From Spartobacteria bacterium (GTDB taxonomy: Bacteria > Verrucomicrobiota > Verrucomicrobiia > Chthoniobacterales > UBA10450), in contig DMCG01000253.1 in assembly GCA_003445855.1 (NCBI GenBank), positions 1 through 16,007 of the forward strand: a stretch of DNA of 16,007 bases, in the 5' to 3' direction. The position numbers were made by a program, and so were the translations under genes. The notes below the pieces were generated by a model. It searched no databases. It was not told the DNA's origin and saw only the letters and a program-made list of their open reading frames with translations. Shown here one piece after another: positions 259 to 15,375 of this stretch. Within the stretch, counting starts at the first letter, position 1. Every line of letters begins with the position of its first letter.

Positions 259-681
259 TCAGATGCCTGGATTCGCGATGAGCAGATAAATCCAGTTCAT
301 GGCGAGTAATGCAACGACAGCGGTGCGGACAAATTTTTTTCCTGTGGCCGTGAAACCCGCGATTCGCAAGCGCGGCGCGCGCGTGATTAAAACGACGAAC
401 GCATAAACATTAAAGATCGACAATGTGCACAACGCGACGAGGGCGAGCGGATTCCAGCTCAGTGCTGAAAGAAAATGTCCATGAAAAAATTCGATTGCCG
501 ACCTTGTCGATCCACAAGTCACGCATGGAAGACCTGTGATCGCGCGAAACATGCAGCGCGGCCACGGCAGACCCAACGCAAACCAAGACGCCGCTGCGCC
601 GAGCGAAGCGATCGAAACGCTCAGCCAAACAAGCTCGTGGTCGAGCTCACCCGGAGCAAGGCAGCGACGCGAGAGCAGCAT
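259..681 (-). CDS. DUF2752 family small membrane protein
   Basis: 140 aa. The central segment (residues 43-60) has C-x-F-R-x-x-T-G-L-P-C-x-x-C-G-x-T-R, followed by a G-H near 68 and an N-P at 77-78; this Cys-rich signature and the N-P are diagnostic of DUF2752 proteins. Hydrophobic stretches at about 18-38, 74-100 and 115-136 suggest three membrane segments with the Cys motif at a membrane edge. The family has no established function. It begins 9 nt after the stop of the GYF_2/Yip1 gene on the same strand, so the two are probably co-transcribed; DUF2752 genes often sit next to small envelope proteins. The gene carries one copy of the 12-mer AAGATCGACAAT on the opposite strand (413-424), read here as L-S-I-F. 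The 7-bp array lies just past the stop. Confidence 0.8.
   Translation of the reverse strand: MLLSRRCLAPGELDHELVWLSVSIASLGAAASWFALGLPWPRCMFRAITGLPCVTCGSTRSAIEFFHGHFLSALSWNPLALVALCTLSIFNVYAFVVLITRAPRLRIAGFTATGKKFVRTAVVALLAMNWIYLLIANPGI
413..424 (+). repeat. 12-mer AAGATCGACAAT, exact copy
   Basis: Inside the DUF2752 gene, antisense to it; read by the gene as L-S-I-F. Directly followed by G, as in four of the nine copies. Confidence 0.9.
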
Positions 682-690
682 CGCCGGCGA

Positions 691-1581
691 TCAATAATTC
701 CAGTGCTGACTCAAGGCACTGATTCCCCCAAAAAACAGAATCGCCACGAGAAATCCTCCGCCGCAGCAGACGATCAATGGAAGGAAAACCGCCAGAACCA
801 CGCGGCCGGTATCGGTTTCATGCGCACGCGCCAGTCCGATGCAGGAGAGGATGATCCTCCAGACTGCCACAATGAAAACGCCGCAGAAAGGGATAACGAG
901 CAAGGGGTCGATCGAGCCAAGGGAAAAACAAATGACACGAAATGTGGTTTCAAACGACTGCTTCGCACCGCCGACAATCATCAGACACAGATGCAAGATC
1001 GCCGAATTAATAAAAATGCCGATGACGATGAGCAGCGGTGCAAAAATGACGAGCAGAATCCATCCGATTCCGCCGAGGAGATGAACAAAAGGATCAGGCC
1101 TGCCTGAAAAAGACCAAGCTAAGTGGAACGCAAAGCGGTACAGAAAATATACGATTAACCCGAAGCTTCCGCCGATGACCGCGTAGAGCAGCGGCTCACC
1201 CAAACCGCCTTCGCGCTTCATCGCCGTGAAAGCGGTGGTCGGTTTGCTCAGAACCATCTGCAGCGTCTCGATAAACGCGTTGAAGAATCCTTTTTCCTGG
1301 CGCTGATCCCATGGCAGACCGCTGCGCGGGGCCGGAATTTCCGATGTCGATCCTGCGGCTGACGGCGTGATTGTCGATGTTGCGCCGGGTTGCGGGGGCG
1401 GCGCGGTTGGAGCAGGCGCGGCAAATTCCGGAAATTGCGAGAGTGGTTGCCAATTTGCCATGCCTTCGCGCCAGCTGAGATCGGTGGGAGCAAAACGCCC
1501 GGCGCGAAGCCCTTCGCGAACGTCTTCCTCGGAAAATGCGCCCAGACTTGTTGCGCCCCGATTAACGTGGATCATCGCCAT
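691..1581 (-). CDS. GYF_2-Yip1 domain membrane protein
   Basis: 296 aa. Residues 1-55 form a GYF_2 domain: a short beta start (MIHVNRGATSLGAFSEEDV), then G-L-R-A-G-R-F-x-P-T-D-L-S-W-R-E-G-M-x-x-W-Q-P-L, the typical 'G.....D..W..GM..W.P' pattern of these presumed peptide-binding modules. A Pro/Ala/Thr-rich linker covers about 54-90. From about 100 to 285 the protein has five hydrophobic segments and an amphipathic 'LxxPxxAFxAM' entry, as in Yip1-type membrane proteins. The GYF_2 domain would lie in the cytoplasm. It is the first gene of a probable two-gene unit with the DUF2752 gene 9 nt downstream. A second in-frame ATG two codons later could equally be the start; no clear Shine-Dalgarno sequence is seen. 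Exact function unknown. Confidence 0.82.
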   Translation of the reverse strand: MAMIHVNRGATSLGAFSEEDVREGLRAGRFAPTDLSWREGMANWQPLSQFPEFAAPAPTAPPPQPGATSTITPSAAGSTSEIPAPRSGLPWDQRQEKGFFNAFIETLQMVLSKPTTAFTAMKREGGLGEPLLYAVIGGSFGLIVYFLYRFAFHLAWSFSGRPDPFVHLLGGIGWILLVIFAPLLIVIGIFINSAILHLCLMIVGGAKQSFETTFRVICFSLGSIDPLLVIPFCGVFIVAVWRIILSCIGLARAHETDTGRVVLAVFLPLIVCCGGGFLVAILFFGGISALSQHWNY

Positions 1582-1696
1582 AAGAATGCCGTTTTATGAA
1601 ACGCAATGCGCAAAGTCAATCGCGCCGGTCTACGATTCGGGTGCCTCGCACACGCGCAGCTACAACCGCGTCCGTTGAGATGTTTGCGGCATTGCC

Positions 1697-1713
1697 ATAC
1701 GTGATTCACGTAT
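1697..1713. promoter_or_regulatory. Perfect 8-bp inverted repeat, possible operator
   Basis: ATACGTGA-T-TCACGTAT is a perfect palindrome with one central base. It lies in the 173-nt gap upstream of the GYF_2/Yip1 gene start (1581) and downstream of the glycosylase stop (1755). No T-run follows on either strand, so a terminator is unlikely; the symmetry suits a dimeric regulator site. This is inference from symmetry and position alone. Confidence 0.35.
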
Positions 1714-1754
1714 AGCAGCCGAATTCGCAGCGGCGACGCAGAGACTAGTAACGC

Positions 1755-2369
1755 TTAGGCGCGCCCTTTATTATCGAGTGCGCGCCAGAAATACCACGCC
1801 GCGACCGAGCGATAGGGGCGCCATTTTTCGCCGAACTTCATGAGCTGTTTGGGCGTGGGAAGTTTCCTTCGACCAAAAGTTTTCGCGAAACCTTTGCGCA
1901 CTCCGTAATCGTGCACCGGCCAGATATCGGGCCGGGCAAGATCGAAAAGCAAAAGCATCTCGACGGTCCAGCGGCCAATCCCGCGCACCGTAATCATGCG
2001 CGCGACAATTTCCTCGTCAGTCATACGCGCGAGTGCCCGGGCCGAGGGAACAGTGCCGTCCAGTGTCTTGGCCGCGAGATCTTTGAGGGCGGCGATCTTC
2101 GCGCGAGAGAGACCGGCGGCGCGAAGCGATCCATCCGCAGTGGCGAGCACACGTTTGGGATCGAGCCATCTGTGCTTGGGATAAAGCGCGCGAACCCGGC
2201 CAAAGATGGTCGCGGCCGCTTTGCCGCTGAGTTGTTGATAGGCGATCGATTCGGCCAGCGAATCGAAGGGTCGAATCAATGCCGGCGGTTTGATGTTGTA
2301 GCGGAGCGTGCGCGCGATGAGCGCAGCCATGCGAGGATCAGTCGCGGCGAGATGTTCTTCGGGAGTCAT
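1755..2369 (-). CDS. DNA-3-methyladenine glycosylase II (AlkA/MAG1-like, HhH-GPD)
   Basis: 204 aa. Base-excision repair enzyme that removes alkylated bases such as 3-methyladenine by cleaving the N-glycosidic bond. The helix-hairpin-helix is seen at about 125-140 (T-V-R-G-I-G-R-W-T-V-E-M), followed by the loop D-I-W-P-V-H-D-Y-G, where D154 fits the catalytic aspartate of the HhH-GPD family. An early motif S-L-A-E-S-I-A-Y-Q-Q-L-S (about 37-48) is the usual conserved helix of MAG/AlkA proteins. No four-Cys iron-sulfur loop follows, unlike MutY/Nth. Length matches the short MAG1-type enzymes that lack AlkA's N-terminal domain. It is transcribed alone, divergent from the outer-membrane protein gene at 2636. 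The upstream gap holds a 12-mer copy at 2440-2451. Confidence 0.9.
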   Translation of the reverse strand: MTPEEHLAATDPRMAALIARTLRYNIKPPALIRPFDSLAESIAYQQLSGKAAATIFGRVRALYPKHRWLDPKRVLATADGSLRAAGLSRAKIAALKDLAAKTLDGTVPSARALARMTDEEIVARMITVRGIGRWTVEMLLLFDLARPDIWPVHDYGVRKGFAKTFGRRKLPTPKQLMKFGEKWRPYRSVAAWYFWRALDNKGRA

Positions 2370-2635
2370 TGGCGCGGAGTTTACGCGGCTTGGCTACTCG
2401 TTAAAGCGCTGGAGACAAAAAGACTTTTTTCGTCGCGTTATTGTCGATCTTGGGACGGGATGGTAAATCGCGGTTGAAACACGGCCTCCGAAAGCGACCA
2501 TGCCGATTATGGAGAGGGCAGTTTGGTTCAGAACTGTCGGCGTCTCGAATCAGCCCTTGCTAAAATGTTTCCATTCCGATAGACGGATTTCGGCTCGCTC
2601 ATGCGATTCATCGACATCCACCGGCTAGAAGTACC
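2370..2635. other. Divergent intergenic region
   Basis: This 266-nt gap lies between the glycosylase start (minus strand) and the outer-membrane protein start (plus strand), so promoters for both should be here. I could not pick a convincing -35/-10 pair. The only clear structure is one exact copy of the 12-mer, in minus orientation at 2440-2451. Confidence 0.5.
2440..2451 (-). repeat. 12-mer AAGATCGACAAT, exact copy
   Basis: Lies in the divergent gap between the glycosylase and outer-membrane protein genes, outside any coding region. Confidence 0.9.
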
Positions 2636-3538
2636 ATGAAAAAAATCCGCCTCGTTTTTTTGACCCTGTTTCTCGGCACGACACTCCCCGCTCTCAGCGG
2701 CACTACCGCGTCCGAAGCACAGCCTTCTGCGACGCCGGAGGAACAAAATTCACGCGATCTTTTTGCTATCGAGACGACGTACACGCTGGACAGCGATTTT
2801 CGCGAATCCAAGCTCGGCCACGGGGATTCCCTCTACAATGATTTTAGCTACGACCATCGCTTTCTCATTACGGGCAATTGGTATTTCCGAGCCGGAGTCG
2901 AATACGAGCGGTTCGATTTCGGCGGCACGGACAACGGCCTGCCCGACCATTTGCAAGCGATCTATGGCCATCTGGCGCTTGAATACATCATGCACGATCA
3001 CGCCGGCGTGGGGCTTCAACTCAATCCGGGCGCTTATTTTCAGAACCACATTACCGGCGACGCCATCGATGTGCCGTGGAGAGCTTTCGTCACGTTCCCG
3101 TTGAAGAAAGACAAAATCTTCGGCGTGATCGGCGTCGGTGGCGGCATTTACCAGGACCCGATCGTGGCTCCGGGTGGCGGGCTCATCTGGCTTTTCAGTG
3201 ATAAGATGCGGCTCGAAGGTGTTTTCCCGAAGCCCGCGCTGGTTTACAATCCAAATGACGACTGGGAATTCCGTCTGCTCGGCGATCTTCTCTTCGAAAG
3301 TTTCCGCACCGATGACGTCGTAACGCCGGAGAAGAAATTGCAACTGCACAACGCCGTGGTGCAATACAGCGAGGAGCGCGGCGGCGTGCAGGCGACTTAC
3401 TCCGGGTTAAAACCGTTTGAGATCATGGCAGGGGCCGGCTACACCTTCCAGCGGGATTTCGATTTTTTCCGCGCCAATCGGCGCGCAACAACTGATCCCG
3501 CGCCTTACTTCAAGGTCGCTATCGAAGCTAAATTCTAG
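2636..3538 (+). CDS. Secreted outer-membrane beta-barrel protein (DUF6268-like)
   Basis: 300 aa. The N-terminus (MKKIRLVFLTLFLGTTLPAL) is a clear signal peptide with cleavage likely around residues 22-26. The rest alternates polar and hydrophobic/aromatic residues in short strands (for example WYFRAGVEYERFDFG, HLALEYIM, GVGLQLNPGAYF, IMAGAGYTF) separated by charged turns, and it ends K-V-A-I-E-A-K-F with the terminal phenylalanine expected by the BAM machinery. The pattern resembles DUF6268-type proteins of Verrucomicrobiota and Planctomycetota; this family name is from memory and uncertain. Probable role: small outer-membrane barrel, substrate unknown. The upstream sequence has only a weak AGAAG ribosome site. 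Its stop overlaps the stop of the convergent SCP-2-like gene by a few bases. Confidence 0.7.
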   Translation: MKKIRLVFLTLFLGTTLPALSGTTASEAQPSATPEEQNSRDLFAIETTYTLDSDFRESKLGHGDSLYNDFSYDHRFLITGNWYFRAGVEYERFDFGGTDNGLPDHLQAIYGHLALEYIMHDHAGVGLQLNPGAYFQNHITGDAIDVPWRAFVTFPLKKDKIFGVIGVGGGIYQDPIVAPGGGLIWLFSDKMRLEGVFPKPALVYNPNDDWEFRLLGDLLFESFRTDDVVTPEKKLQLHNAVVQYSEERGGVQATYSGLKPFEIMAGAGYTFQRDFDFFRANRRATTDPAPYFKVAIEAKF

Positions 3539-3945
3539 GGAAAGATCTCGTCGAGCTTTCTCGCCAGCCCTTTATCGCCGCGAACCTTCAGTCGGCCGGT
3601 CATAAAGGCCCACGAGCCTTTCAATGTTCCGTTGGACATCGCGACCCAATCTTTATCGCTCGTAATAAAGGCGACGCTAGGATTGTCGATCTTTCCCCGG
3701 CCCATCTTAAATGTTCCGTCGTTAACGTCGATCCACCATTCACCGCCGTTCGGACCACTCAGCTCCCACTGGTAGCGCGCATGCACACCCTTCGCCTTCT
3801 CGGCCCGGAAACTCTGGCACATTCCGTCGAACACCTGCTGCGGGGTCGAATTGTCAGGCTCGTTTGACGCCGCGCTCGCCGCGCACAACGAAAGAGCCGC
3901 AGCCGCCATTGTCGTTAGGCAAAAGCTCACGCTCTTCGCTTTCAT
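3535..3945 (-). CDS. Secreted SCP-2 sterol-transfer-like protein
   Basis: 136 aa from the ATG at 3945. An upstream in-frame ATG at 4038 was not chosen because the extension runs through the hairpin element and would bury the signal peptide. Residues 1-27 are a signal peptide ending in a plausible A-S-A site. The mature part has the SCP-2 core: Y-Q-W-E-L-S-G-P-N-G-G-E-W-W-I-D-V-N-D-G, then K-I-D-N-P-S-V-A-F-I-T-S-D-K-D-W-V-A-M, then a final S-W-A-F-M-T-G-R-L-K-V-R-G-D segment before an amphipathic helix. SCP-2 domains hold lipids or other hydrophobic ligands in a tunnel; periplasmic ones are poorly characterised. The K-I-D-N codons (3682-3693) are one exact copy of the repeated 12-mer, at a place where the family normally has a similar K-x-(D/E)-N-P. 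Confidence 0.8.
   Translation of the reverse strand: MKAKSVSFCLTTMAAAALSLCAASAASNEPDNSTPQQVFDGMCQSFRAEKAKGVHARYQWELSGPNGGEWWIDVNDGTFKMGRGKIDNPSVAFITSDKDWVAMSNGTLKGSWAFMTGRLKVRGDKGLARKLDEIFP
3682..3693 (-). repeat. 12-mer AAGATCGACAAT, exact copy
   Basis: In sense orientation in the SCP-2-like gene, read as K-I-D-N. Confidence 0.9.
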
Positions 3946-3996
3946 TACATTATTGGATCGCTCTCGTAGCCCAAATTGGCTGTAGCAACTCGTGTC

Positions 3997-4086
3997 GGTA
4001 GGGCGACGCTCTGCGGAGCCGATGAATTCACATTTCACCAGCGCGGCTCGTGAAGTTTCGTCGGCTCGACAGAGTCTCGCGCTACC
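3997..4086. repeat. REP-like imperfect inverted repeat A
   Basis: The left arm at 3997-4026 (starting GGTAGGGCGACGCTCTGCGG) pairs with the right arm at 4057-4086, whose reverse complement starts GGTAGCGCGAGACTCTGTCG. The arms are about 30 nt with six or so mismatches and enclose a 30-nt loop. The element starts 2 nt past the nitrilase stop codon and ends about 50 nt before the SCP-2-like start, so in RNA it would form a long hairpin right after the nitrilase gene. The arm pattern (GTAGCG..., CTCTG, GAGC) resembles that of element B at 15655-15740. Confidence 0.8.
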
Positions 4087-4088
4087 CC

Positions 4089-4874
4089 CTAGTACAGATC
4101 CATCCGACGATGAGCGAATACAGCCATTCGATTTCGGACAGAATCGATTACGTGGTCTGAAATCTCGGCTTGGATAATCTCTTCGCGATCGACCGAGGCA
4201 GCCGCGACAATCGCACCGTAAGGATCGATAATCGCTGATGTGCCGCAGAAAGTAACTCCGTCATCTGTCCCCACACGATTCGCCAGGATAAGGTAACTCT
4301 GGTTTTCAATCGCACGCGCCATCGCCAAGATTCGCAAATGCTCCACCCGAGGGAAGGGCCATGCCGAGGAGGTAATAAATACGTTTGCACCATGCTCGAC
4401 GGCGAGCGTGCGACACATCTCAGGAAATCGAAGATCGTAACAAATGCTCAATCCGAAGCGAAATCCGGCCACGGTGAGACTGGCAAACTCATTTCCCCCT
4501 GAGAAGCACGTGCGCTCTTCAATCGGAGCAGCCGTAACCAGATGAGTCTTTCGATATTTTGCAACGACTTGACCGTTTGCATCGACAACGAGTTGCGAAT
4601 TGTAGATGGCCGCGCCATCCCGCTCCGAAACGCCGCCGATAATCGCTATCGAAAAGTTCTTCGCAATCTTCCGGAGTTCGGGGACAGCTCCGTCAGTCCA
4701 GGGAGTCGCGTGCTTTTGAATTACTGGCATCGAATAACCAGTGTCGACCATTTCCGGAAAAACGATCAGCTCAGCACCGGCATCTTTGGCGCGCGAAGAA
4801 AATTCGCGAATCTTGCTAAGATTTGCGTCCAGATCACCGAGTGCGCACGAAATCTGGGCTGCGGCAATTTTCAT
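4089..4874 (-). CDS. Carbon-nitrogen hydrolase (nitrilase superfamily amidase)
   Basis: 261 aa from ATG 4874; a longer in-frame start at 4937 would overlap the MFS gene and adds no family residues, and MKIAAAQISC is the normal nitrilase N-terminus. The catalytic triad is visible: E41 in I-V-F-P-E-M, K109 in Y-R-K-T-H-L, C145 in L-S-I-C-Y-D-L-R-F-P-E-M. The C-Y-D-L-R-F-P-E signature and length match small omega-amidase/Nit2-like and related branch-10 enzymes, cytoplasmic hydrolases of simple amides such as alpha-ketoglutaramate. The exact substrate cannot be told. It follows the MFS gene with a 14-nt gap that holds a copy of the 12-mer, and is probably the last gene of that transcript. Hairpin element A lies directly after its stop. 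Confidence 0.87.
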   Translation of the reverse strand: MKIAAAQISCALGDLDANLSKIREFSSRAKDAGAELIVFPEMVDTGYSMPVIQKHATPWTDGAVPELRKIAKNFSIAIIGGVSERDGAAIYNSQLVVDANGQVVAKYRKTHLVTAAPIEERTCFSGGNEFASLTVAGFRFGLSICYDLRFPEMCRTLAVEHGANVFITSSAWPFPRVEHLRILAMARAIENQSYLILANRVGTDDGVTFCGTSAIIDPYGAIVAAASVDREEIIQAEISDHVIDSVRNRMAVFAHRRMDLY

Positions 4875-4878
4875 GATA

Positions 4879-4890
4879 ATTGTCGATCTT
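4879..4890 (-). repeat. 12-mer AAGATCGACAAT, exact copy
   Basis: Overlaps two bases of the MFS stop codon (TAA) and fills most of the 14-nt gap before the nitrilase ATG. It occupies the place where the nitrilase ribosome-binding site would be. Confidence 0.9.
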
Positions 4891-6307
4891 AGCGCAAATT
4901 TTTGTCGAGCGCGCCAATCTTGCGCGTTTCCGGCCAACCGAATGCCACCGCCAGCACAACCAGGATCGTACCGATGCCTCCGCCCACAACGGAAATGACC
5001 GGCCCGAAGAGCGCAGCGGTTAATCCAGATTCAAGCGCGCCAAACTCATTCGAGGTTCCAATAAAAATGTTGTTTACGGCGGAGACACGTCCGCGCATTT
5101 CATCTGGCGTGACCAGTTGCACGATGGAGCCGCGGATGATCACGCTCACACTGTCGAACGCGCCCGCAAGAAAGAGCATGCCGAGCGAGAGCCAGAAAAC
5201 TTTCGATATGCCGAACAGGACGGTGGCAATTCCGAAACCGGTTACACACCAAAGCAATTTTTTGCCGGCGTGTTTCATGGGCGGCAAGTAAGCGACCGCG
5301 AGCGCGATCACGAACGCGCCCACCGCTGGCGCCGCGCGCATCCAGCCCAGCCCGACCGGTCCACAATGCAAGATTTGATCGGCATAAATCGGAAGCAACG
5401 CGGTCGCTCCGCCCAGCAACACCGCGAATAAATCGAGCGTGATCGTCGCCAGAATCACTTTCTTGCTGAAGACGAATCGCATGCCCGCAATCAAACTGCG
5501 CCACGGATTTTTCTCGGCGTCATTCGCGCTGCGCGTGCCGCGGCGAATTGGCAGGACGAGCAGGAAAAACGAAAACGCGCAGAGAGCATCGAGCGCGTAA
5601 ACGAATGGGAAACCGATGTGCGCGATAAGAAGGCCGCTGATGCCTGGGCCGACGACTGATCCGATTTGGAACACGCTGTTGTTCCACGTCACTGCGTTTG
5701 TAAAAGTATCGCGGGAGACCAGCGTCGGAAAAAACGAGCTGCGCGCAGCCCATCCAAAAGTGCGGGCCGTTCCATAGATGAAAAGTAAAAGGTAGATCAC
5801 CGGGATGGAGGCATCATCGAAATGAAACGCGGGATGGTGGCGCTCGAAGATGGTGGCAATGCCTCGCAATATTCCGTTTCCCTGCCGCAAGATCGACATC
5901 TGCGGAATCGCGAGATGTTTCCAGGAAACCAACGCCAGCGCCACCGAAGCGAGTGCGCTGAAAATCTGCGACACCAGAATGATTCGTTTGCGGCTGAATC
6001 GGTCGGCCAGATGACCGGCCGGCAGTGACAGTGCGACCACCGGGACCGCGATCACCAGTCCGACGAGGCCAAGCGCGGTCGCGGAATGTGTGCGCGCGTA
6101 AATTTCCCATTCGACCGCGACCGCGAGCATCTGGCGGCCCATGATCGACAATAAATTGCCAAGCGTGAACAAGCTGAAACCGCCGAATCGAAACGCAGCG
6201 TAGGGATCATGCGGTCGCGCCTCCGGCCGGCCCGGCGGAGCGATCGCGGCGCGTTGGCCGCGGGGCGAATCATATCGGTTCGGCGGCACGTCGGTTTCTT
6301 GCGGCAT
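4889..6307 (-). CDS. MFS transporter, EntS-like (MFS_3)
   Basis: 472 aa from ATG 6307; an in-frame ATG at 6337 adds ten Arg-rich residues and cannot be excluded. Inner-membrane major facilitator with about 12 segments. After a Pro/Arg-rich 38-residue N-terminal tail comes G-N-L-L-S-I-M-G-R-Q-M, and the loop 2-3 motif G-H-L-A-D-R-F-S-R-K-R at 98-108. The segment N-S-V-F-Q-I-G-S-V-V-G-P-G-I-S-G-L is typical of the EntS/MFS_3 group of exporters (siderophores, drugs). Substrate unknown. A polar stretch at about 134-168 between membrane segments 3 and 4 looks longer than in relatives and has a near copy of the 12-mer (5889-5900). The stop codon overlaps an exact 12-mer copy. Probably co-transcribed with the nitrilase gene. 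Confidence 0.85.
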   Translation of the reverse strand: MPQETDVPPNRYDSPRGQRAAIAPPGRPEARPHDPYAAFRFGGFSLFTLGNLLSIMGRQMLAVAVEWEIYARTHSATALGLVGLVIAVPVVALSLPAGHLADRFSRKRIILVSQIFSALASVALALVSWKHLAIPQMSILRQGNGILRGIATIFERHHPAFHFDDASIPVIYLLLFIYGTARTFGWAARSSFFPTLVSRDTFTNAVTWNNSVFQIGSVVGPGISGLLIAHIGFPFVYALDALCAFSFFLLVLPIRRGTRSANDAEKNPWRSLIAGMRFVFSKKVILATITLDLFAVLLGGATALLPIYADQILHCGPVGLGWMRAAPAVGAFVIALAVAYLPPMKHAGKKLLWCVTGFGIATVLFGISKVFWLSLGMLFLAGAFDSVSVIIRGSIVQLVTPDEMRGRVSAVNNIFIGTSNEFGALESGLTAALFGPVISVVGGGIGTILVVLAVAFGWPETRKIGALDKNLR

Positions 6308-6412
6308 GTTCGAGCGCGTTCGCACAAACACGCGCACCAGATTCTAAATTCCGCAAACGCCACCGCAACTCCGCGATGCCGAGATTCCGGCTCCCGAAGA
6401 TCGATGGCAACG

Positions 6413-7939: not shown

Positions 7940-7987
7940 TCCTCGTTCCTATTCGGTCAAACGCCGCGAGTAAAGAAAAAACAGCAG

Positions 7988-8755
7988 TTAAGCGTGCCGT
8001 CCAAACCTGGATAATCGGCCGAAGAGTCGGAGGCGATAACTCTCGATGCGCGCGTGAGCATACGGCAACCATTCGTGTTTAAGCCGAAGCCATGCCTCGC
8101 GGTTCCGTGTCAGAAATACAAAACGGCGGTTTAAAAATAAAACGTCCATATTTGATGGAAACTCGCCTCGAAGGACCAGGAACCCGAGGGAACAAAGCCG
8201 ACCGATGACGCGGCTGGTTTGCAATGAGAGATCGAAATGAAAAACCGGGTCATCGTGAAACTCCACGGTTATTTGCGGTACCGAAGACAAGGTTTCATCC
8301 GACAGGCTGTCGAGCGCTGCGCACTCGGCGCCTTCAATATCAAGTTTGATAAGATCGACAATCGGCAGCGATAGTCTGTCAAACAGGCTGCGCAGAGACA
8401 AACCGGCGATAACAATCTGGTTTGACTCTTTCCCGGAAACCTTCATTTCGGATGAGAGTTTCAGAATCGTGCTCGCCTCAGGATTTTCAGCCAGGTTAAG
8501 GAACACTTCCTTATCCTCATCCGTGACCGCGCAGTTCAAGCGCGTAAACGGCTCTTCGCTTGGCAGAACCGCGTAGAGCTCCGGATTTGCTTCAGCGAGA
8601 ATGAACTTTCCACGTATCCGCGCCGAAAGGATTTTTGAAAAAGCTCCTTTGTGCGCGCCGAGATCAAGGATCGTTGCGTCGTCGTGCAAAAGGCTTGTGC
8701 AGACCAAATGGCCGCGGATTCTTTCTATTCGGACAGGTGTCCTTTCCTTAGACAT
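7988..8755 (-). CDS. FkbM family SAM-dependent methyltransferase
   Basis: 255 aa. Class I methyltransferase fold with SAM motif I D-L-G-A-H-K-G-A-F-S (31-40), the acidic end of strand 2 in A-E-A-N-P (54-58), and the FkbM signature L-I-K-L-D-I-E-G-A-E (135-144) followed by a V-E-F-H-D segment (164-168). FkbM enzymes O-methylate hydroxyls of polyketides, glycans and lipopolysaccharide-like molecules; acceptor unknown. The C-terminal 40 residues are Arg/Leu-rich and amphipathic. The gene is divergent from the porin-like gene (117-nt gap) and lies upstream of the tandem GlcG-like gene. The I-V-D-L codons at 8351-8362 are an exact copy of the 12-mer on the opposite strand. No convincing Shine-Dalgarno sequence is seen before the ATG. 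Confidence 0.87.
   Translation of the reverse strand: MSKERTPVRIERIRGHLVCTSLLHDDATILDLGAHKGAFSKILSARIRGKFILAEANPELYAVLPSEEPFTRLNCAVTDEDKEVFLNLAENPEASTILKLSSEMKVSGKESNQIVIAGLSLRSLFDRLSLPIVDLIKLDIEGAECAALDSLSDETLSSVPQITVEFHDDPVFHFDLSLQTSRVIGRLCSLGFLVLRGEFPSNMDVLFLNRRFVFLTRNREAWLRLKHEWLPYAHARIESYRLRLFGRLSRFGRHA
8351..8362 (+). repeat. 12-mer AAGATCGACAAT, exact copy
   Basis: Antisense inside the FkbM methyltransferase gene, read by the gene as I-V-D-L just before its K-L-D-I-E-G signature. Confidence 0.9.
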
Positions 8756-8872
8756 AGTCGGCGCCGAGCGGTGAGCTGAACCTGCAATTGAGAAGTTGTC
8801 CTGCCAAGTTAGCGCACTGTCCAGCAGCGCTCACGCCTTGAGCTTGCAAACAAGGAGCGCATTCAGGCATTC

Positions 8873-10918
8873 TTGCCTGCCATGCGCTGGTCAGCTCCGT
8901 TGTTTACCGGCGCGATTGTGCGCCCAGCCGTCGCGATATTTCTTTTTTGCTGGATCGACATCGCGACTGCTCGCGGTCAGGCGGTTGAAATTAAACCGCC
9001 GCCGCCTGTGCTCGCGCTGCAATGCGATTTGATTTTCGCCAACACGGTTCTCCTTGCCCAGAACGATCAATTTAACCCTGATCCAGGCGCGCCGCAGCAA
9101 GTCGAGCCACAAGCGCCGCCCGAGCTTTTCCCGCCGATCCTGCCGCAGCTTCCGGAATATGGTCGGGAGGCGCTCCCGCGCTCGCTCCAGTTGCCACGCA
9201 AAGGCGTGCGCGAAGTCGTTCCGCGCCGGCGCAAATTGGAGTACGAAACTTATCCGCAATCGGAGCAAGGCGAAGGCTTGCTGCCGAACTCAGAACCGGT
9301 GCCGAATCGGTGGTTCATTGGATTCGGCCGCTGGAAACGCTACGCCGATCCGTCAACGGAGACGACCTACCAATCCGATCTGCATCTGTGGCATCCGTAT
9401 TTGCAGAGCAAACTCAAAGGCGACGCGCCCATTATCGGCCAGGACATTTTCCTCAACCTCACGGTTGAAGATTTCTTCCAAGTCGAACCGCGCAAACTTC
9501 CCACGCCAAGCGGTGTGAGCACAGACCGGCCGAACAGCTCGGAATTCTTCGGACTGAGCGACCAATTGTTTTACTCGAACGATTTCTCCATCGGTGTCGA
9601 TCTTTTTAAAGGCGAGACCGCCTTCAAACCGGTCGATTGGGCGGTGCGTTTGCTTGGCGTTTACAATCACAACTACATCGATGTGGAGGAGAGAAACGTC
9701 GTCAATCCCAATCCGCAAAACGGAACGACGCGAGAAAAAGAATTCTATTCGCTCCAGGAAGCGTTCGCGGAAATTCACCTGCGCGATTTGTCGAACAATT
9801 ACGATTTCATTTCGGCGCGCGCCGGCATTCAGCCGTTCGTGAGCGATTTCCGCGGTTTCATTTTCAACGACACCAATCTCGGTGTGCGCATCTTCGGCAA
9901 TTACGATAACAACCGCTGGCAATACAACATTGCCGGCTTCGACATGCTCGAGAAGGACACCTATTCCGACCTGAACGAATTCAAACGGCGCGACCAGCAA
10001 ATCTACGTCGCGAATATTTTCCGGCAGGATTTGATCTGGAAAGGTTACACCGGCGAACTCAGTTTCCTCTCTAACTTCGACAACACCAGCCGCCATTTCG
10101 ACAAAAATGGTTTCATCACCCGCCCGGCACCCATCGGCACCGTGGCAGATCATTATGTCCAAGCCTATTATCTCGGCTGGGCTGGCGATGGACACATCGG
10201 CTGGCTCAACATTGACCACGCGTTTTACCAAGTTCTCGGCGAAGACGGCTTAAACGGGATCGCCGGACAACGCGTGGACATCAATGCGCAAATGGCCGCG
10301 TTGGAATTGTCGGTCGACAAAAACTGGATGCGACACAAGTTGTCGATCTTTTATGCGAGCGGCGATCACGATCCGGTCGATTCGCACGCGACCGGTTTCG
10401 ACACGGTATTTGATCGGCCGTTTTTCATCGGCGGGCCCTTCAGCTTTTTTTCGCATCAAGGCTTCAATCTCGCCGGCACATCGGTAAACTTTAAGCAGCG
10501 CGACAGTCTCGTGGTCGATTTCCGCGCGAGCAAATCGGAAGGCCAATCCAACTTCGTCAATCCCGGCGCATTCATCGTCGGGTACGGTCTCGACGCCGAC
10601 ATCACGCCAAAGCTGAAAGGCTTCGTGAATGTGAACTACATCCGGACGATCGACACCGCCACGACCGAGCTGGTCCTGTTCACCAATCGCGCGAGCAACG
10701 ATTTTGCGCTCGATTGCAGCGCCGGATTTGAATGGCGACCGCTGCTCACCGAAAACATCATCGTCACGGCCGGCGCCGGTTTTCTCATCCCGCGCCGGGG
10801 TTACAAAGATATTTATCGCACGAACACGGAACCGGTCTTCGGTTATCCAAGCCCGTCGCCGGGGCACGTCGATCCATTTCTTTACAGCGCGATCGTGACG
10901 TTGACGCTCACTTATTAA
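8873..10918 (+). CDS. Large outer-membrane beta-barrel, porin-like
   Basis: 681 aa from the TTG at 8873, or 678 aa from the ATG at 8882. An AAGGAG at 8852-8857 lies 15 nt before the TTG and 24 nt before the ATG, so the start is undecided. A signal peptide is seen (hydrophobic AVAIFLFCW region, cleavage near residue 37). A Pro-rich, Gln-rich segment (about 41-110) is followed by long runs of alternating strands with aromatic girdle residues and acidic turns, ending Y-S-A-I-V-T-L-T-L-T-Y with a C-terminal aromatic residue. No CxxCH motif is present. The size is close to that of MtrB/PioB-type barrels (about 700 aa), but I see no recognisable family motif. It is the first gene of the plus-strand block that leads to the decaheme cytochrome. 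It could be the porin partner of that cytochrome, or an ordinary uptake porin. Confidence 0.72.
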   Translation: MPAMRWSAPLFTGAIVRPAVAIFLFCWIDIATARGQAVEIKPPPPVLALQCDLIFANTVLLAQNDQFNPDPGAPQQVEPQAPPELFPPILPQLPEYGREALPRSLQLPRKGVREVVPRRRKLEYETYPQSEQGEGLLPNSEPVPNRWFIGFGRWKRYADPSTETTYQSDLHLWHPYLQSKLKGDAPIIGQDIFLNLTVEDFFQVEPRKLPTPSGVSTDRPNSSEFFGLSDQLFYSNDFSIGVDLFKGETAFKPVDWAVRLLGVYNHNYIDVEERNVVNPNPQNGTTREKEFYSLQEAFAEIHLRDLSNNYDFISARAGIQPFVSDFRGFIFNDTNLGVRIFGNYDNNRWQYNIAGFDMLEKDTYSDLNEFKRRDQQIYVANIFRQDLIWKGYTGELSFLSNFDNTSRHFDKNGFITRPAPIGTVADHYVQAYYLGWAGDGHIGWLNIDHAFYQVLGEDGLNGIAGQRVDINAQMAALELSVDKNWMRHKLSIFYASGDHDPVDSHATGFDTVFDRPFFIGGPFSFFSHQGFNLAGTSVNFKQRDSLVVDFRASKSEGQSNFVNPGAFIVGYGLDADITPKLKGFVNVNYIRTIDTATTELVLFTNRASNDFALDCSAGFEWRPLLTENIIVTAGAGFLIPRRGYKDIYRTNTEPVFGYPSPSPGHVDPFLYSAIVTLTLTY

Positions 10919-11386
10919 ATGCGAAAGAAAACGCCCAACGCTCAACGCCGAACACCCAATATCGAATGGGAGACACGCGGACTTCGAGTTACCGAGTCAG
11001 CAAATTCCGAATACGGTGCGAGCAAGAATCGGAAGTATGATCTTGAAGACAGACTGCTTGAATTCGCAGTGACTGTCGTTGAACTCACCGAATCCTTGCC
11101 GAACACGAGAGCTGGAAATCACATTGCGGGGCAGCTCTTGCGTTGCGGAACATCACCTCTTTCCAATCACGGTGAGGTTGAGGCAGCGGAGTCACATAAG
11201 GATTTTCTCCACAAGTTACGAATTTGCTTAAAAGAGCTGCGTGAAACGAAGCGTTGGTTGCGCCTCGTCGGTCGATTGAAAAAGTTGGGGCAGCCCGCAA
11301 ATCTGACCGCTTGCCTCACGGAGATCGAAGAGCTTATCCGGATTTTCGCAGCCCGCGTTCGCACAGCAGAAAAAAACGCAAAATGA
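10919..11386 (+). CDS. Four-helix bundle protein, S23 / 23S rRNA intervening-sequence family
   Basis: 155 aa, cytoplasmic. The core (about 40-150) has the family pattern: R-K-Y-D-L-E-D-R-L-L-E-F-A, T-R-A-G-N-H-I-A-G-Q-L-L-R-C-G-T-S, then E-A-A-E-S-H-K-D-F-L-H-K-L-R-I-C-L-K-E-L-R-E-T and a last helix. Such proteins are found inside 23S rRNA intervening sequences, near diversity-generating retroelements (Avd-like) and, often, alone among short repeats; the role of the free-standing ones is unknown. The ATG directly follows the porin stop (TAA), and residues 2-16 are simply the translated 7-bp array, so the ancestral protein probably began near residue 35. Its stop TGA overlaps the cytochrome ATG (ATGA at 11383-11386), giving translational coupling. 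Inverted arrays on both sides suggest a mobile cassette. Confidence 0.85.
   Translation: MRKKTPNAQRRTPNIEWETRGLRVTESANSEYGASKNRKYDLEDRLLEFAVTVVELTESLPNTRAGNHIAGQLLRCGTSPLSNHGEVEAAESHKDFLHKLRICLKELRETKRWLRLVGRLKKLGQPANLTACLTEIEELIRIFAARVRTAEKNAK
10936..10970 (+). repeat. 7-bp tandem array, copy 2
   Basis: Five heptads CAACGCT, CAACGCC, GAACACC, CAATATC, GAATGGG, preceded by the same GAAAGAAAACG leader as copy 1. The copy sits in the 5' end of the four-helix gene and is translated as N-A-Q-R-R-T-P-N-I-E. Its inverted partner is copy 3 on the other side of that gene. Confidence 0.85.
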
Positions 11387-14300
11387 GGGCGCGATTCTCC
11401 GAGTTCGACGTTGGACGTTCGGCGTTGGATGTTCGGCGTTTCTTTTTTGTCTCCGGCATTCAGCGTTGGACGTTGAGCGTTGAATGTTTTCTGCTCGTTC
11501 TTCTTAGCATCTCCAGCTCAGCAATTGCGCAAGAAGTCGCCACCTCCGGCTACGGCCCGCCGACTTCCGTTCCCGTTACAAGATCGACAATGGAGCCGGC
11601 GGGAGTCGAGCGACATAGACGGGAAGGCAGCGAGTCAATCGCACGTGCGGCTTTGCCGCCGCGAAATTGGATCGATCAAACGCAAGCCGAAGCCGACGCA
11701 AAAAGCATCGGCTGTTTGCAATGTCATCAAGGCGTCGAGCCCATGCACAAAGCCGAGCAGGTCGTGCTCGGCTGCACCGATTGCCACGGCGGCAACCCAG
11801 CGCGCGGCCTAACGAAAGACCAGGCGCACGTTTTGCCGCGCAACAAAGAGTTTTGGAAAACGTCCGCCAAACCGCCGAACTCAAACGCCTGGCTCAATCA
11901 CGAGTCGCCGGAATTCATCCGTTTCCTCAATCCCGGCGATTTGCGCGTCGCGCAGCAGGCCTGCGGCCTTTGTCACGGCGAGATCATCCGCAATGTCGAC
12001 CACAGCATGATGAACCACGGTGCGATGCTTTGGGGCGCTGCTCTATATAATAATGGCGCTTATCCGGAAAAGAATTACCGCTTCGGCCAGGCCTACGGCG
12101 GGGACGGCGCGCCGCTCAAGCTCGTTAACTACACGCCGGTCACGGCAGAAGACACGAAACTGCACGGGATTCTGCCGTTCATCGAACCGTTGCCGCGCTT
12201 CAATTTAAGCAATCCCGGAAACATTTTGCGCATTTTCGAAAAGGGCGGTGAAAGACAATTGCAGCTTGGACTTCCGACGAGCGCGGAACCAAACGGCCGG
12301 CCGCGCAATCGTTTGTCCGAGCGCGGGCTCGGCACGCTCAATCGCACCGATCCGGTTTTTCTCGGTTTACAAAAAACGAGATTACACGATCCGCTTCTAG
12401 GATTTTTCGGATCGAACGATCATCCGGGCGATTATCGATCGAGCGGTTGCTCGGCTTGTCACGTGGTTTACGCAAACGATCGCTCGCCGACAAATTCCGG
12501 CTGGTGGAGCAAATACGGCCACCAAGGTTTGAGTTTCACGGCCGATGAATCGATTCCGAAAGCCGAGCGCGGTCATCCCATCCTGCACCAGTTCACGCGC
12601 TCGATTCCCTCGAGCCAATGCATGAATTGCCACATGCACCAAGGGAACCTCTTCGTGAATCCGTACCTCGGTTACACCTGGTGGGACCAGGAAACCGATG
12701 GCGAGTTGATGTATCCGCCGGAACAGCGCAACCCCACCGACGACGAGCTAGTAAGATCGACAATGATCAACCCCGAAGCCGCGGCCGCGCGCGGTTTATG
12801 GGGCGACAAAGATTTTCTCGACCACGTCGCGGAATTGAATCCGCAACTGAAGCACACGCAGTTCGCCGATTATCACGGACATGGCTGGGTTTTTCGCGCC
12901 GTTTTCAAACACGATCGCAAAGGCAACCTGCTCGATCTCGACGACAACAAGATCGACAATGAGGATCCGCACAAATTTTCAAAAGCGGTGCATCTGAAAG
13001 ACGTGCATCTCGCGCACGGCATGCAATGCGCCGATTGTCATTTCAATGTCGATGTGCACGGCAACGGTATGCTTTACGGAGAGCCGCGCAACGCCACGAC
13101 AATCAATTGCATCGATTGTCATGGCGCGATCGACCAACGCCCAACACTCGTCACTTCCGGCAACGCGGGGCAAATCGACTTGCTCAACACGAGCAACACG
13201 CCGTTTGGTCCGCGGTTCACTTGGGAAGGCGACAAACTTTGGCAGCAATCAACGATGTCGCCGGACGTGCGCTGGGAAATTCCACAAACGATCGACACCA
13301 TCGATCCGCTTTCGCCGCACTACAATCCGAAGTCCGCCTATGCGAAAACGCTCCGGCGCGATGGAACGACATGGGGCGGCATTTTGCCGACGACACCCAA
13401 CGACCGTCGCGTCAAACTTGCGCACGACAACAGCGCGATGGATTGCCAGATCTGTCACACGTCGTGGGCGACGAGTTGTTTTGGTTGCCATTTACCGATG
13501 AAAGCAAACCAGCGCGTCCCGCAAAATAAATTCGAAGGCGTGACCGATCGGAATTTCACAACTTACAATCCGCAAGTCGTGCGGGACGACGTCTTCATGC
13601 TCGGTATCGACGGCACGGTGAAGAAAAACCGCATGGCGGTGATTCGATCCTCGAGCGCAGTCGTGGTCAGTTCGCAAAACGCAAATCGCGAGTGGGTTTA
13701 CTCGCAGCAGCAAACTTTTTCGGCGGAAGGTTACAGCGGCCAGGCGTTCAATCCGCATTTTCCGCACACCACCAGCAGCGCCGGCACGACAAAAAATTGC
13801 ACCGACTGCCATTTGGCGAAGGACAACGATAACAATGCGTGGATGACGCAATTGTTAGGCTTCGGCACCGGCACGGTGAATTTCTTCGGCCGCTACGCCT
13901 ACGTCGGCGAAGGGCGCGAAGGATTTCACGCTGTCGTTTGGACTGAACCGGACGAACCGCAAGCCGTGATCGGCAGCCATCTGCACAAGATCGCTTACCC
14001 GGCGAACTACCAGAGACATGTCGATCTTGGGTCCGAATTGCAGGAAGCGTACGAACATTCCGGCAAAGAAATCCAAGACAGCGTTTTACGCGGCGAGTAT
14101 CTCTACACCGCGAACGGTCCCGGTGGTTTCGAAGCCTTCGACGTCGCGAACGTCGATCAAAAAGGATTTTCCGAGCGCATTGTGACCTCGCCGGTTTCGC
14201 CGCTTGGTCAGCGGACCTATGTCCACACGCCGTACGCAACTTCAATTGCTTTGCCGAGCACGCTCGCGCTTGATCCGTCACGGCAACACATTCCTGAAAA

Positions 14301-15375
14301 TGAAGAGCAACCAATCGATCTCTTCTACGCCTTCGCTTACGTCTCCGATCGTGAGGAAGGTCTCGTCGTTATCAATGTCGCCACGCTCGTCGATGGAAAT
14401 CCCGATAATAATTTCCTGAACAAGGATGTCGTTTTTAATCCGGACGGAGTTTTGAGTGGCGCAACGTTCGTCGCCGCCGCCGGTCATCGGCTTTACATGA
14501 CAACGCCGCGCGGACTGTATGTTGTCGATGTTGGCGATCCGATGCATCCGCGCATCGCCGGACAATTGACCGGAAATTTTCTGCGCAACCCGCGTTGCAT
14601 CGCCGTGCAGTTTCGGTACGGCTTCATCACCGACGATGACGGATTGAAGATTGTCGATCTTACGGAGCCGACACGGCCGATCCCGATTCCGCGCGCAACC
14701 GTACGATTGAATCACGCGGGACGTTTGTACGTCGCGCGCACTTACGCTTATGTCGCGAACGGACCGGAAGGCTTGGCCATTGTCGATGTTGAGAATCCGG
14801 AGTCGCCGCATCTCGATCAAATGTTCAATGCTAACGGCGTGTTGAACGACACGCGCGCGGTCCAAATCGGCAGCGTGAATGCTTCACAGTTCGCGCTCGT
14901 GGCCGATGGCAAAAATGGCTTGCGCGTGGTGCAATTGATTTCGCCCGACACAGTCGCGGGCGCGCAAGGATTCAGCCCGCGACCAAATCCGAAATTGATC
15001 GCGACGTATCGCACCAAAGGGGAAGCGATCTGCGTTTCGCGCGGACTCGAACGCGACCGCGTGGTTGATGAAACCGGCGGACAAACGGTTGTCTTTGGCC
15101 GACGCGGCGCGCGCCCGTTTCATCTCAATGAGATGGAACGCTTTTATCGCCAAACAGAAATTGTCGATGCAAAAGATGTCGATCTTCGGCGCAAGGGAGA
15201 ACTCTATCGCGTGGAAGACGTCATGCTTTCGGGCGGCGTGCTCACGACAAAGAGCGGCGCAGTCCTGACGCCGACGCCTTCACCCGCGCCGGAAAATTTG
15301 CCAAGTGCAACACCGGAAGTGGAGCCGAGCGCAATCCCGAGCGCGACGCCAAAAATCTTTCGGCGCGGCTATTGA
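11383..15375 (+). CDS. Decaheme c-type cytochrome with C-terminal LVIVD propeller
   Basis: 1330 aa from ATG 11383 (overlapping the upstream stop); the reading frame is open further upstream, but that part overlaps the four-helix gene. The signal core C-F-L-L-V-L-L-S-I-S-S-S-A-I-A-Q is at 35-50. Ten CxxCH haem sites begin at residues 111, 131, 194, 356, 413, 549, 576, 688, 699 and 806, many with extra histidines nearby as possible distal ligands. From about 835 to 1240 follow repeats of the LVIVD type (G-L-V-V-I-N-V, G-L-Y-V-V-D-V-G-D-P, G-L-K-I-V-D-L-T-E-P, G-L-A-I-V-D-V-E-N-P), a predicted beta-propeller used for surface or protein contacts. The tail (1296-1325) is rich in Thr/Pro/Ser. Being secreted, it would carry electrons in the periplasm or outside the cell. 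Next to a porin-like barrel this suggests an electron conduit, but no catalytic haem (CxxCK) is present and the partner is unproven. Four exact 12-mer copies lie inside. Confidence 0.88.
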   Translation: MRARFSEFDVGRSALDVRRFFFVSGIQRWTLSVECFLLVLLSISSSAIAQEVATSGYGPPTSVPVTRSTMEPAGVERHRREGSESIARAALPPRNWIDQTQAEADAKSIGCLQCHQGVEPMHKAEQVVLGCTDCHGGNPARGLTKDQAHVLPRNKEFWKTSAKPPNSNAWLNHESPEFIRFLNPGDLRVAQQACGLCHGEIIRNVDHSMMNHGAMLWGAALYNNGAYPEKNYRFGQAYGGDGAPLKLVNYTPVTAEDTKLHGILPFIEPLPRFNLSNPGNILRIFEKGGERQLQLGLPTSAEPNGRPRNRLSERGLGTLNRTDPVFLGLQKTRLHDPLLGFFGSNDHPGDYRSSGCSACHVVYANDRSPTNSGWWSKYGHQGLSFTADESIPKAERGHPILHQFTRSIPSSQCMNCHMHQGNLFVNPYLGYTWWDQETDGELMYPPEQRNPTDDELVRSTMINPEAAAARGLWGDKDFLDHVAELNPQLKHTQFADYHGHGWVFRAVFKHDRKGNLLDLDDNKIDNEDPHKFSKAVHLKDVHLAHGMQCADCHFNVDVHGNGMLYGEPRNATTINCIDCHGAIDQRPTLVTSGNAGQIDLLNTSNTPFGPRFTWEGDKLWQQSTMSPDVRWEIPQTIDTIDPLSPHYNPKSAYAKTLRRDGTTWGGILPTTPNDRRVKLAHDNSAMDCQICHTSWATSCFGCHLPMKANQRVPQNKFEGVTDRNFTTYNPQVVRDDVFMLGIDGTVKKNRMAVIRSSSAVVVSSQNANREWVYSQQQTFSAEGYSGQAFNPHFPHTTSSAGTTKNCTDCHLAKDNDNNAWMTQLLGFGTGTVNFFGRYAYVGEGREGFHAVVWTEPDEPQAVIGSHLHKIAYPANYQRHVDLGSELQEAYEHSGKEIQDSVLRGEYLYTANGPGGFEAFDVANVDQKGFSERIVTSPVSPLGQRTYVHTPYATSIALPSTLALDPSRQHIPENEEQPIDLFYAFAYVSDREEGLVVINVATLVDGNPDNNFLNKDVVFNPDGVLSGATFVAAAGHRLYMTTPRGLYVVDVGDPMHPRIAGQLTGNFLRNPRCIAVQFRYGFITDDDGLKIVDLTEPTRPIPIPRATVRLNHAGRLYVARTYAYVANGPEGLAIVDVENPESPHLDQMFNANGVLNDTRAVQIGSVNASQFALVADGKNGLRVVQLISPDTVAGAQGFSPRPNPKLIATYRTKGEAICVSRGLERDRVVDETGGQTVVFGRRGARPFHLNEMERFYRQTEIVDAKDVDLRRKGELYRVEDVMLSGGVLTTKSGAVLTPTPSPAPENLPSATPEVEPSAIPSATPKIFRRGY
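11400..11441 (-). repeat. 7-bp tandem array, copy 3 (inverted)
   Basis: Six heptads in reverse orientation: CGAGTTC, GACGTTG, GACGTTC, GGCGTTG, GATGTTC, GGCGTTT, followed by a T-run that mirrors the A-rich leader of copies 1 and 2. It begins 13 nt after the four-helix stop and is translated in the cytochrome frame as S-E-F-D-V-G-R-S-A-L-D-V-R-R-F. Confidence 0.85.
11456..11490 (-). repeat. 7-bp tandem array, copy 4 (inverted)
   Basis: Five heptads GCATTCA, GCGTTGG, ACGTTGA, GCGTTGA, ATGTTTT follow copy 3 after 14 nt in the same inverted orientation. They are translated as I-Q-R-W-T-L-S-V-E-C-F, which runs directly into the hydrophobic core of the cytochrome signal peptide. Confidence 0.8.
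11580..11591 (+). repeat. 12-mer AAGATCGACAAT, exact copy
   Basis: Sense inside the cytochrome gene, in the segment just after the signal peptide, read as T-R-S-T-M. Confidence 0.9.
12753..12764 (+). repeat. 12-mer AAGATCGACAAT, exact copy
   Basis: Sense inside the cytochrome gene between haem sites 5 and 6, read as V-R-S-T-M, the same frame as the copy at 11580. Confidence 0.9.
12949..12960 (+). repeat. 12-mer AAGATCGACAAT, exact copy
   Basis: Sense inside the cytochrome gene just before haem site 6, read as K-I-D-N within an acidic, loop-like stretch. Confidence 0.9.
14650..14661 (-). repeat. 12-mer AAGATCGACAAT, exact copy
   Basis: Antisense inside the cytochrome gene, read as I-V-D-L in one of the LVIVD propeller repeats. 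Confidence 0.9.

Follow-up and report, generated by a model that had tools for sequence, protein, structure and literature searches.

A short, over-represented DNA word in Chthoniobacterales near Candidatus Udaeobacter: a probable self tag resembling known DNA uptake sequences

Tags by which bacteria recognise their own DNA for uptake have, to our knowledge, been described in just two families, unrelated to each other. The stretch analysed here (the window, 16,007 nucleotides in its entirety) raises the question of whether there is another, as a reading of its sequence alone had picked out an over-represented, non-palindromic 12-mer, AAGATCGACAAT, and proposed it as a possible uptake or other genome-wide signal. 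The window is contig C183 of a draft genome, G000 (2.1 Mb, 260 contigs, 73% complete), placed near Candidatus Udaeobacter (Spartobacteria, Chthoniobacterales). A scan with the multiheme protein encoded in the window matched Spartobacteria bacterium palsa_1382 (G015) and Candidatus Udaeobacter sp. AEW3 (G054, genus g5; 85% over the best segment), Centralia_MAG_126 (G013; 77%) and others in Chthoniobacterales (at least 80 loci). The word is best described as AAGATCGACA, a core of 10 nt with A or T after it, and genome comparison supports the interpretation first proposed: AAGATCGACA(A/T) probably works, in a clade near Candidatus Udaeobacter, as a self tag like the DNA uptake sequence (DUS) and the uptake signal sequence (USS).

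The copies spread well beyond the locus in which they were noticed. In G000 the exact 12-mer occurs 491 times, 244 and 247 by strand, and its reversed-pattern control not at all; the core occurs 1509 times (735/774 by strand; reversed control 1). The genome G013, of a related genus, 2.9 Mb and 98% complete, holds 4653 cores (2314/2339 by strand), or one per 630 bp. CTAG is rare in many bacteria and the reversed control of the core contains it, so Markov expectations are the better yardstick. A G000 sample of 275,100 bases contained 244 cores where a third-order model trained on the same bases expects 2.4 and a fourth-order model 4.4, and the G013 sample contained 988 against 7.0 (third-order) or 989 against 14.6 (fourth-order), that is, some 70 to 140 times expectation. 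Ranked by the fourth-order model, AAGATCGACA led all 10-mers for over-representation in the G000, G013 and G015 samples. The genome count ran to hundreds or thousands of copies against a few expected, with equal strands. In the 989 copies of the G013 sample (662,633 bases), base 11, the first after the core, was A in 51% and T in 45% (96% A/T). Bases 12–15 show weaker preferences (base 15 is C in 56%), as do those directly 5′ of the core (S, G, C). Placement in genes was followed in 30 stretches of G013, leaving aside three stretches from a core-free island described below and one copy-free 2.6-kb contig; with genes called by a simple codon model, which makes in-gene fractions rough, 778 copies fell inside called genes, 175 were intergenic and 35 lay on edges. 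Those in coding sequence used all six combinations of frame and orientation, the rarest 9 times and the commonest 304 times. A constraint at the level of protein can therefore be rejected.

The word is also conserved in place, more than the DNA around it. In alignments of the window with stretches from ten relatives, the core was intact at 35 of 55 aligned sites, against 5–22% for background 10-mers and 0–33% for flanking 10-mers, the latter being highest in G003 and G002, both of the window's genus. In G013, at 76% identity, 10 of 11 sites were intact, compared with 9.7% of all 10-mers and 6.4% of flanking ones. Intact sites numbered 5/5 in G003, 3/3 in G002, 2/3 in G001, 3/4 in G022, 1/2 in G025, 1/1 in G010 and 6/11 in G015. 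Of the six sites that the window has within the multiheme gene, it shares four with G015 and G013; a Udaeobacter row (L052) has one or two mismatches at each of these four.

Distribution over the family is one-sided. Among 83 family genomes, G013 had 4653 cores, the window's genus 996–1509 in its four genomes, G010 1070, G015 760 and G014 715; by genus, g14 had 147–1016, g5 74–755, g4 22–85 and g6 25–69, while g2, g3, g7, g9 and g10 had 9–29. Of 384 genomes drawn across the class, 371 lay outside the family and had at most 53 cores each, and the exact 12-mer was found 0–3 times in 44 genomes from other families of the order. A joined tree of ComEC, DprA and PilM from 17 genomes (G003 and G027 were left out, having too few columns) places all seven motif-rich genera on one side of a split with support of 100/99 (SH-aLRT/bootstrap), branching within that side being weakly supported; ComEC alone recovers the same group at 93/91, under the mark for firm support. 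No comparably dense word was found in G008 or G009, and G005 had only modest repeated words. Single loci above 9 kb from multiheme relatives, which are small samples, gave no further clear case outside the window's family.

One large region of G013 lacks the word altogether. On contig C14, positions 354,865–459,713 (104.8 kb; L154, L328, L155, L329, L156 and L330) contain no core where 173 are expected, and the largest core gap inside the other sampled stretches is 4.4 kb. Ten proteins from this zone and its left edge were scanned, giving one TrbI and one TraG P-loop domain, one CagX below the cut-off, three RND-type (ACR_tran) pumps, one protein at the edge with Mrr_cat, and three without a family. 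The zone is probably an integrative conjugative element (ICE). In G000, contig C200 (L182) has only 4 cores in 20 kb and is possibly another acquired region.

A second word, GCCTAACGA, unrelated to AAGATCGACA, is dense in other genera of the family. In genus g10 it reaches 4605 copies in G027, 2754 in G021, 2183 in G033, 1980 in G012 and 1410 in G039; G004, of genus g2, has 2147, and g2 and g10 are sister genera (100/100 in the joined tree). G013 is dense in both words, with 1802 copies of GCCTAACGA evenly spread over both strands, and in its C14 zone this word is also scarce (10 against 65 expected). That even spread led us to abandon an integron attC interpretation of CGTTAGGC/GCCTAACGA in L055. 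In 130 genomes from other families of the order GCCTAACGA does not exceed 30 copies; its counts of 94–587 in g3, g6, g7 and g9, and of 42–469 in g1, g5, g8, g12 and g14, are above that level, which suggests an older word that is decaying in part of the family. Speaking against such an age for GCCTAACGA, its counts in g4 (19–95), in G015 (60) and in many g5 genomes are within about twofold of the reversed control or below it. The ratio of one-mismatch to exact excess in G013 is 0.90 for GCCTAACGA and 0.12 for AAGATCGACA; for AAGATCGACA it is 0.28 in G000 and 1.0–3.6 in G015, G022, g5 and G016, some of these being very small samples. Few one-mismatch forms where a word is dense and many where it is sparser are as expected for upkeep as opposed to decay. 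In a fuller history, transformation guided by uptake sequences would have arisen a third time, independently and outside Proteobacteria, in two dialects unrelated to each other and with their turnover still visible, GCCTAACGA being the older and decaying in the AAGATCGACA clade and G013 being caught carrying both. Widespread soil bacteria would then be sexually structured by a DNA password. We regard this history as evenly balanced between true and false.

Within the window, allowing up to two mismatches, there are 21 matches to the word, whereas 200 dinucleotide shuffles gave 1.72 on average and at most 7. The core occurs 14 times, at 413, 2442, 3684, 4881, 5889, 8351, 9595, 10341, 11580, 12753, 12949, 14019, 14652 and 15177. 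The sequence-only reading had located nine exact 12-mers, on the + strand at 413, 8351, 11580, 12753 and 12949 and on the − strand at 2440, 3682, 4879 and 14650, and four one-mismatch copies at 1370, 6141, 10339 and 14779; all were found where it put them, and its translations KIDN, RSTM, IVDL and LSIF are correct. The copies are as follows.

413–424, + strand: exact 12-mer, antisense inside the DUF2752 gene, read LSIF; core intact in G001, G002, G003, G013 and G022, two to three mismatches in G014 and G015
1370–1381, − strand: one-mismatch copy AACATCGACAAT in the Yip1/GYF_2 gene
2440–2451, − strand: exact 12-mer, intergenic; core intact in G003, the sole alignable relative
3682–3693, − strand: exact 12-mer in the SCP2-like gene, read KIDN; core intact in G001, G002, G003, G013, G022 and G025
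4879–4890, − strand: exact 12-mer at the junction of the major facilitator superfamily (MFS) and nitrilase genes; core intact in G003, G015 and G013, two mismatches in G022
5889–5898, + strand: core 10-mer, antisense in the MFS gene
6141–6152, + strand: one-mismatch copy in the MFS gene
8351–8362, + strand: exact 12-mer, antisense in the FkbM methyltransferase gene, read IVDL; alignable in none of the ten relatives
9595–9604, − strand: core 10-mer, antisense in a 681-aa open reading frame (ORF) at 8873–10918
10341–10350, − strand: core 10-mer, antisense in the ORF at 8873–10918
11580–11591, + strand: exact 12-mer in the multiheme gene, read RSTM; heads a longer dispersed repeat
12753–12764, + strand: exact 12-mer in the multiheme gene, read RSTM
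12949–12960, + strand: exact 12-mer in the multiheme gene, read KIDN
14019–14028, − strand: core 10-mer, antisense in the multiheme gene
14650–14661, − strand: exact 12-mer, antisense in the multiheme gene, read IVDL
14779–14790, − strand: one-mismatch copy AACATCGACAAT in the multiheme gene
15177–15186, − strand: core 10-mer, antisense in the multiheme gene; not common to the aligned relatives, one mismatch in G015

The earlier count of six genes and two gaps stands only for the gaps, the exact copies lying, by our gene reading, in just four genes (DUF2752, SCP2-like, FkbM methyltransferase and multiheme); with the four one-mismatch copies added, there are seven genes beside the two gaps. Treating the copy at 4879 as intergenic presupposes a nitrilase start at an inner ATG, as the mechanical ORF from a TTG would take it in. 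The multiheme gene (11254–15375) encodes a 1373-aa multiheme/LVIVD-repeat protein whose relatives are mostly Verrucomicrobia among the best 80 loci of one scan. The window also carries two dispersed repeats. One, of about 40 nt and starting with the core, lies at 11578–11634 and recurs elsewhere in G000, for example at L165:5905, L165:6526, L170:1316 and L172:1430; the other, of the AACGTCCAACGCTCAACG type, lies at 207–250, 10923–10966, 11398–11440 and 11458–11492, and similar words are frequent in several relatives.

As to how the word could work, a pilus-associated DNA-binding protein at the cell surface would prefer free DNA carrying it, and word-bearing fragments would enter via a secretin and ComEC, pass to DprA and recombine with the chromosome. 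Alleles with the word would then be copied into the population more often than those without, and because of this the word would build up and be restored after mutation, while a conjugative island would stay free of it. GCCTAACGA would be a second, unrelated dialect in the sister genera, and G013 would carry both as after a change of receptor preference. The function is inferred from the pattern, and so are uptake, the receptor, the drive and the order of the two words. Of the competence genes to which the sequence-only reading had pointed, ComEC was found in 17 of 18 genomes and DprA in 17 of 18; PilM was found in 19 of 19, and a secretin gene lies near PilM in G013, the genome in which it was looked for. 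A pilin scan of G013 stretches yielded proteins of the type II secretion system (T2SS) type and unassigned N_methyl proteins. ComEC, DprA and PilM are present in motif-poor relatives too, and the same families occur in E. coli, so they are permissive and do not discriminate.

Several observations weigh against an uptake role. ComEC, DprA and PilM are found equally in motif-poor relatives, and no machinery gene tested tracks the word; ComEC of G000 matches in two separate pieces (C31:14735-15728), through an assembly error or a broken gene; and no GspH/FimT-type pilin (PF12019) was detected in 19 genomes. The alignment covers one 16-kb region in related genomes, so that its sites are not independent, and only 3/8 aligned sites are intact in G014 and 1/7 in G034, although the losses in these two and in G015 would fit decay where the word is sparser. 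The island test, in turn, covers a single island. Copies are enriched 1.83-fold between genes in G013 (p 6e-15) but stand at 0.79-fold in G000 (p 0.11), and there is a slight antisense excess in both (428/778 in G013, p 0.006; 119/196 in G000, p 0.003). G013 has 31 pairs spaced at exactly 15 bp, every one of them same-strand, and of its 10 neighbour pairs at 16 bp, 9 are same-strand (for example L135:10839, L144:14791 and L158:4108). These 40 direct pairs, against 1.6 expected, have only 1 counterpart in G000; they may reflect a receptor binding side by side, or a route by which copies arise. Inverted pairs forming terminators are often seen for DUS and USS, without being required; here, pairs on opposite strands within 65 bp show no enrichment, numbering 24 in G013 (46 expected) and 3 in G000 (6 expected). 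Finally, our searches of open-licence PubMed Central papers turned up no uptake or transformation data for these organisms.

Other roles can be proposed for the word. It might be bound inside the cell by an abundant protein that is nucleoid-associated or organises the chromosome, with each site under selection. Its density (988 copies over 600 kb of G013, island excluded), its conservation in place and the 15–16 bp direct pairs, which would suit proteins bound side by side, agree with this. Such a role would nevertheless require thousands of individually selected sites inside genes, and it sits poorly with a dense word that is wholly different between branches of one family and that a large island of the same chromosome lacks; we consider it unlikely. 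A site for a DNA modification enzyme, with self marked by methylation rather than by sequence, would likewise exclude foreign islands, and the word does contain GATC, yet modification sites are not usually this strongly enriched. The comparable highly iterated palindrome HIP1, which has a methyltransferase site according to a passage in PMC1939737, is palindromic and this word is not, leaving the idea quite improbable.

A Chi-like recombination signal, or a polarity signal like the FtsK-orienting polar sequence (KOPS), would also be over-represented, non-palindromic and taxon-specific. Chi is orientation-biased. The copies here have equal strands, and on draft contigs, with origin and terminus not placed, their orientation shows no link to GC skew (Spearman 0.15, p 0.44; 30 stretches of G013), nor are neighbouring copies significantly co-oriented (508/958 in G013, p 0.065; 111/224 in G000, p 0.95), which is part of what the sequence-only reading had tied to an uptake sequence. 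Against the 70- to 140-fold excess in G013, Chi is given in PMC1939737 as 1008 copies versus 151 in E. coli, and we hold a signal of either type to be very improbable. The suggestion that the copies are remnants of a spreading mini-insertion, or of a longer dispersed repeat, fares worst. Eight of 240 G000 copies, that at window position 11580 included, head a longer dispersed repeat, and one of the nine multiheme sites of G013 starts within sequence that 10 of 11 other rows lack. The other 232 G000 copies have no common flank by the test used; flanks resembling another copy's were found for only 8/240 copies in G000 (random positions 0/220) and 39/984 in G013 (6/947), and we rejected a longer repeat as the cause. 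In each of eight G013 examples the flank itself holds the word again, exactly or nearly so. At the four shared multiheme sites, eight motif-poor relatives have 3–8 mismatches and no indel. Because these word-less relatives hold unrelated DNA of equal length, the word is not an insertion at these four well-aligned sites; the window's remaining two multiheme sites lie in or beside alignment gaps. Over all aligned sites only 3/55 touch a gap and 52/55 are gap-free. As the main cause, an insertional origin, which the sequence-only reading had listed as an alternative, is thus contradicted and scarcely credible.

The uptake-sequence interpretation accounts best for the pattern. The literal 12-mer appears in no open-licence PubMed Central paper; in the same collection, the matches listed for the two shorter words include none on a bacterial genome-wide motif, and those listed for uptake-sequence terms with Verrucomicrobia, Udaeobacter or Verrucomicrobiota include nothing relevant. 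If the interpretation is true, this would be a third, unrelated case, in Verrucomicrobiota, implying that such a solution evolves repeatedly, and it would offer independent material on whether selfish drive or safe recombination is the role of such words. It would also imply that transformation is common in soil bacteria that we know chiefly through draft genomes. Word-free zones are moreover a practical route to mobile elements in these genomes; in Neisseriaceae, atypical DUS distribution has been used to find ICEs (Hughes-Games 2020, PMC7371117).

Among known systems, as far as the passages cited go, the pattern matches published properties of the DUS. Treangen 2008 (PMC2397512) names two of them, strong conservation and a lack of copies in genes acquired recently. 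The Neisseriaceae DUS, whose receptor is ComP, is likewise a non-palindromic word of 10–12 nt in thousands of copies (PMC3630211), conserved in place (PMC2397512) and missing from ICEs (PMC7371117), with clade dialects tracking phylogeny and, in one genome, two dialects together (PMC3630211); the kingDUS of Kingella oralis, at 5918 copies in 2.4 Mb, is denser than AAGATCGACA in G013 (PMC3630211). It differs in sequence and phylum, in that the dialects described in PMC3630211 all keep a CTG core whereas AAGATCGACA and GCCTAACGA have no common word, and in the 15/16-bp direct pairs of G013 without inverted-pair enrichment; uptake and receptor are, in our case, putative. The Pasteurellaceae USS, with the predicted receptor ComN/PpdA (PMC12616744), has in common a short core, weaker flanks, a mostly coding location and more than one dialect, and differs in sequence, in the T-rich flanking blocks of the H. 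influenzae consensus (PMC1939737), which this word lacks, and in the PF12019 pilin, of which none was detected in 19 of the genomes studied here. Chi is also short, non-palindromic, genome-wide and taxon-specific, but is several-fold over-represented in E. coli (PMC1939737), whereas the present word is unbiased and 70 to 140 times over expectation. The HIP1 of cyanobacteria resembles it in the extreme genome-wide over-representation of a short word (PMC1939737) and differs in being palindromic.

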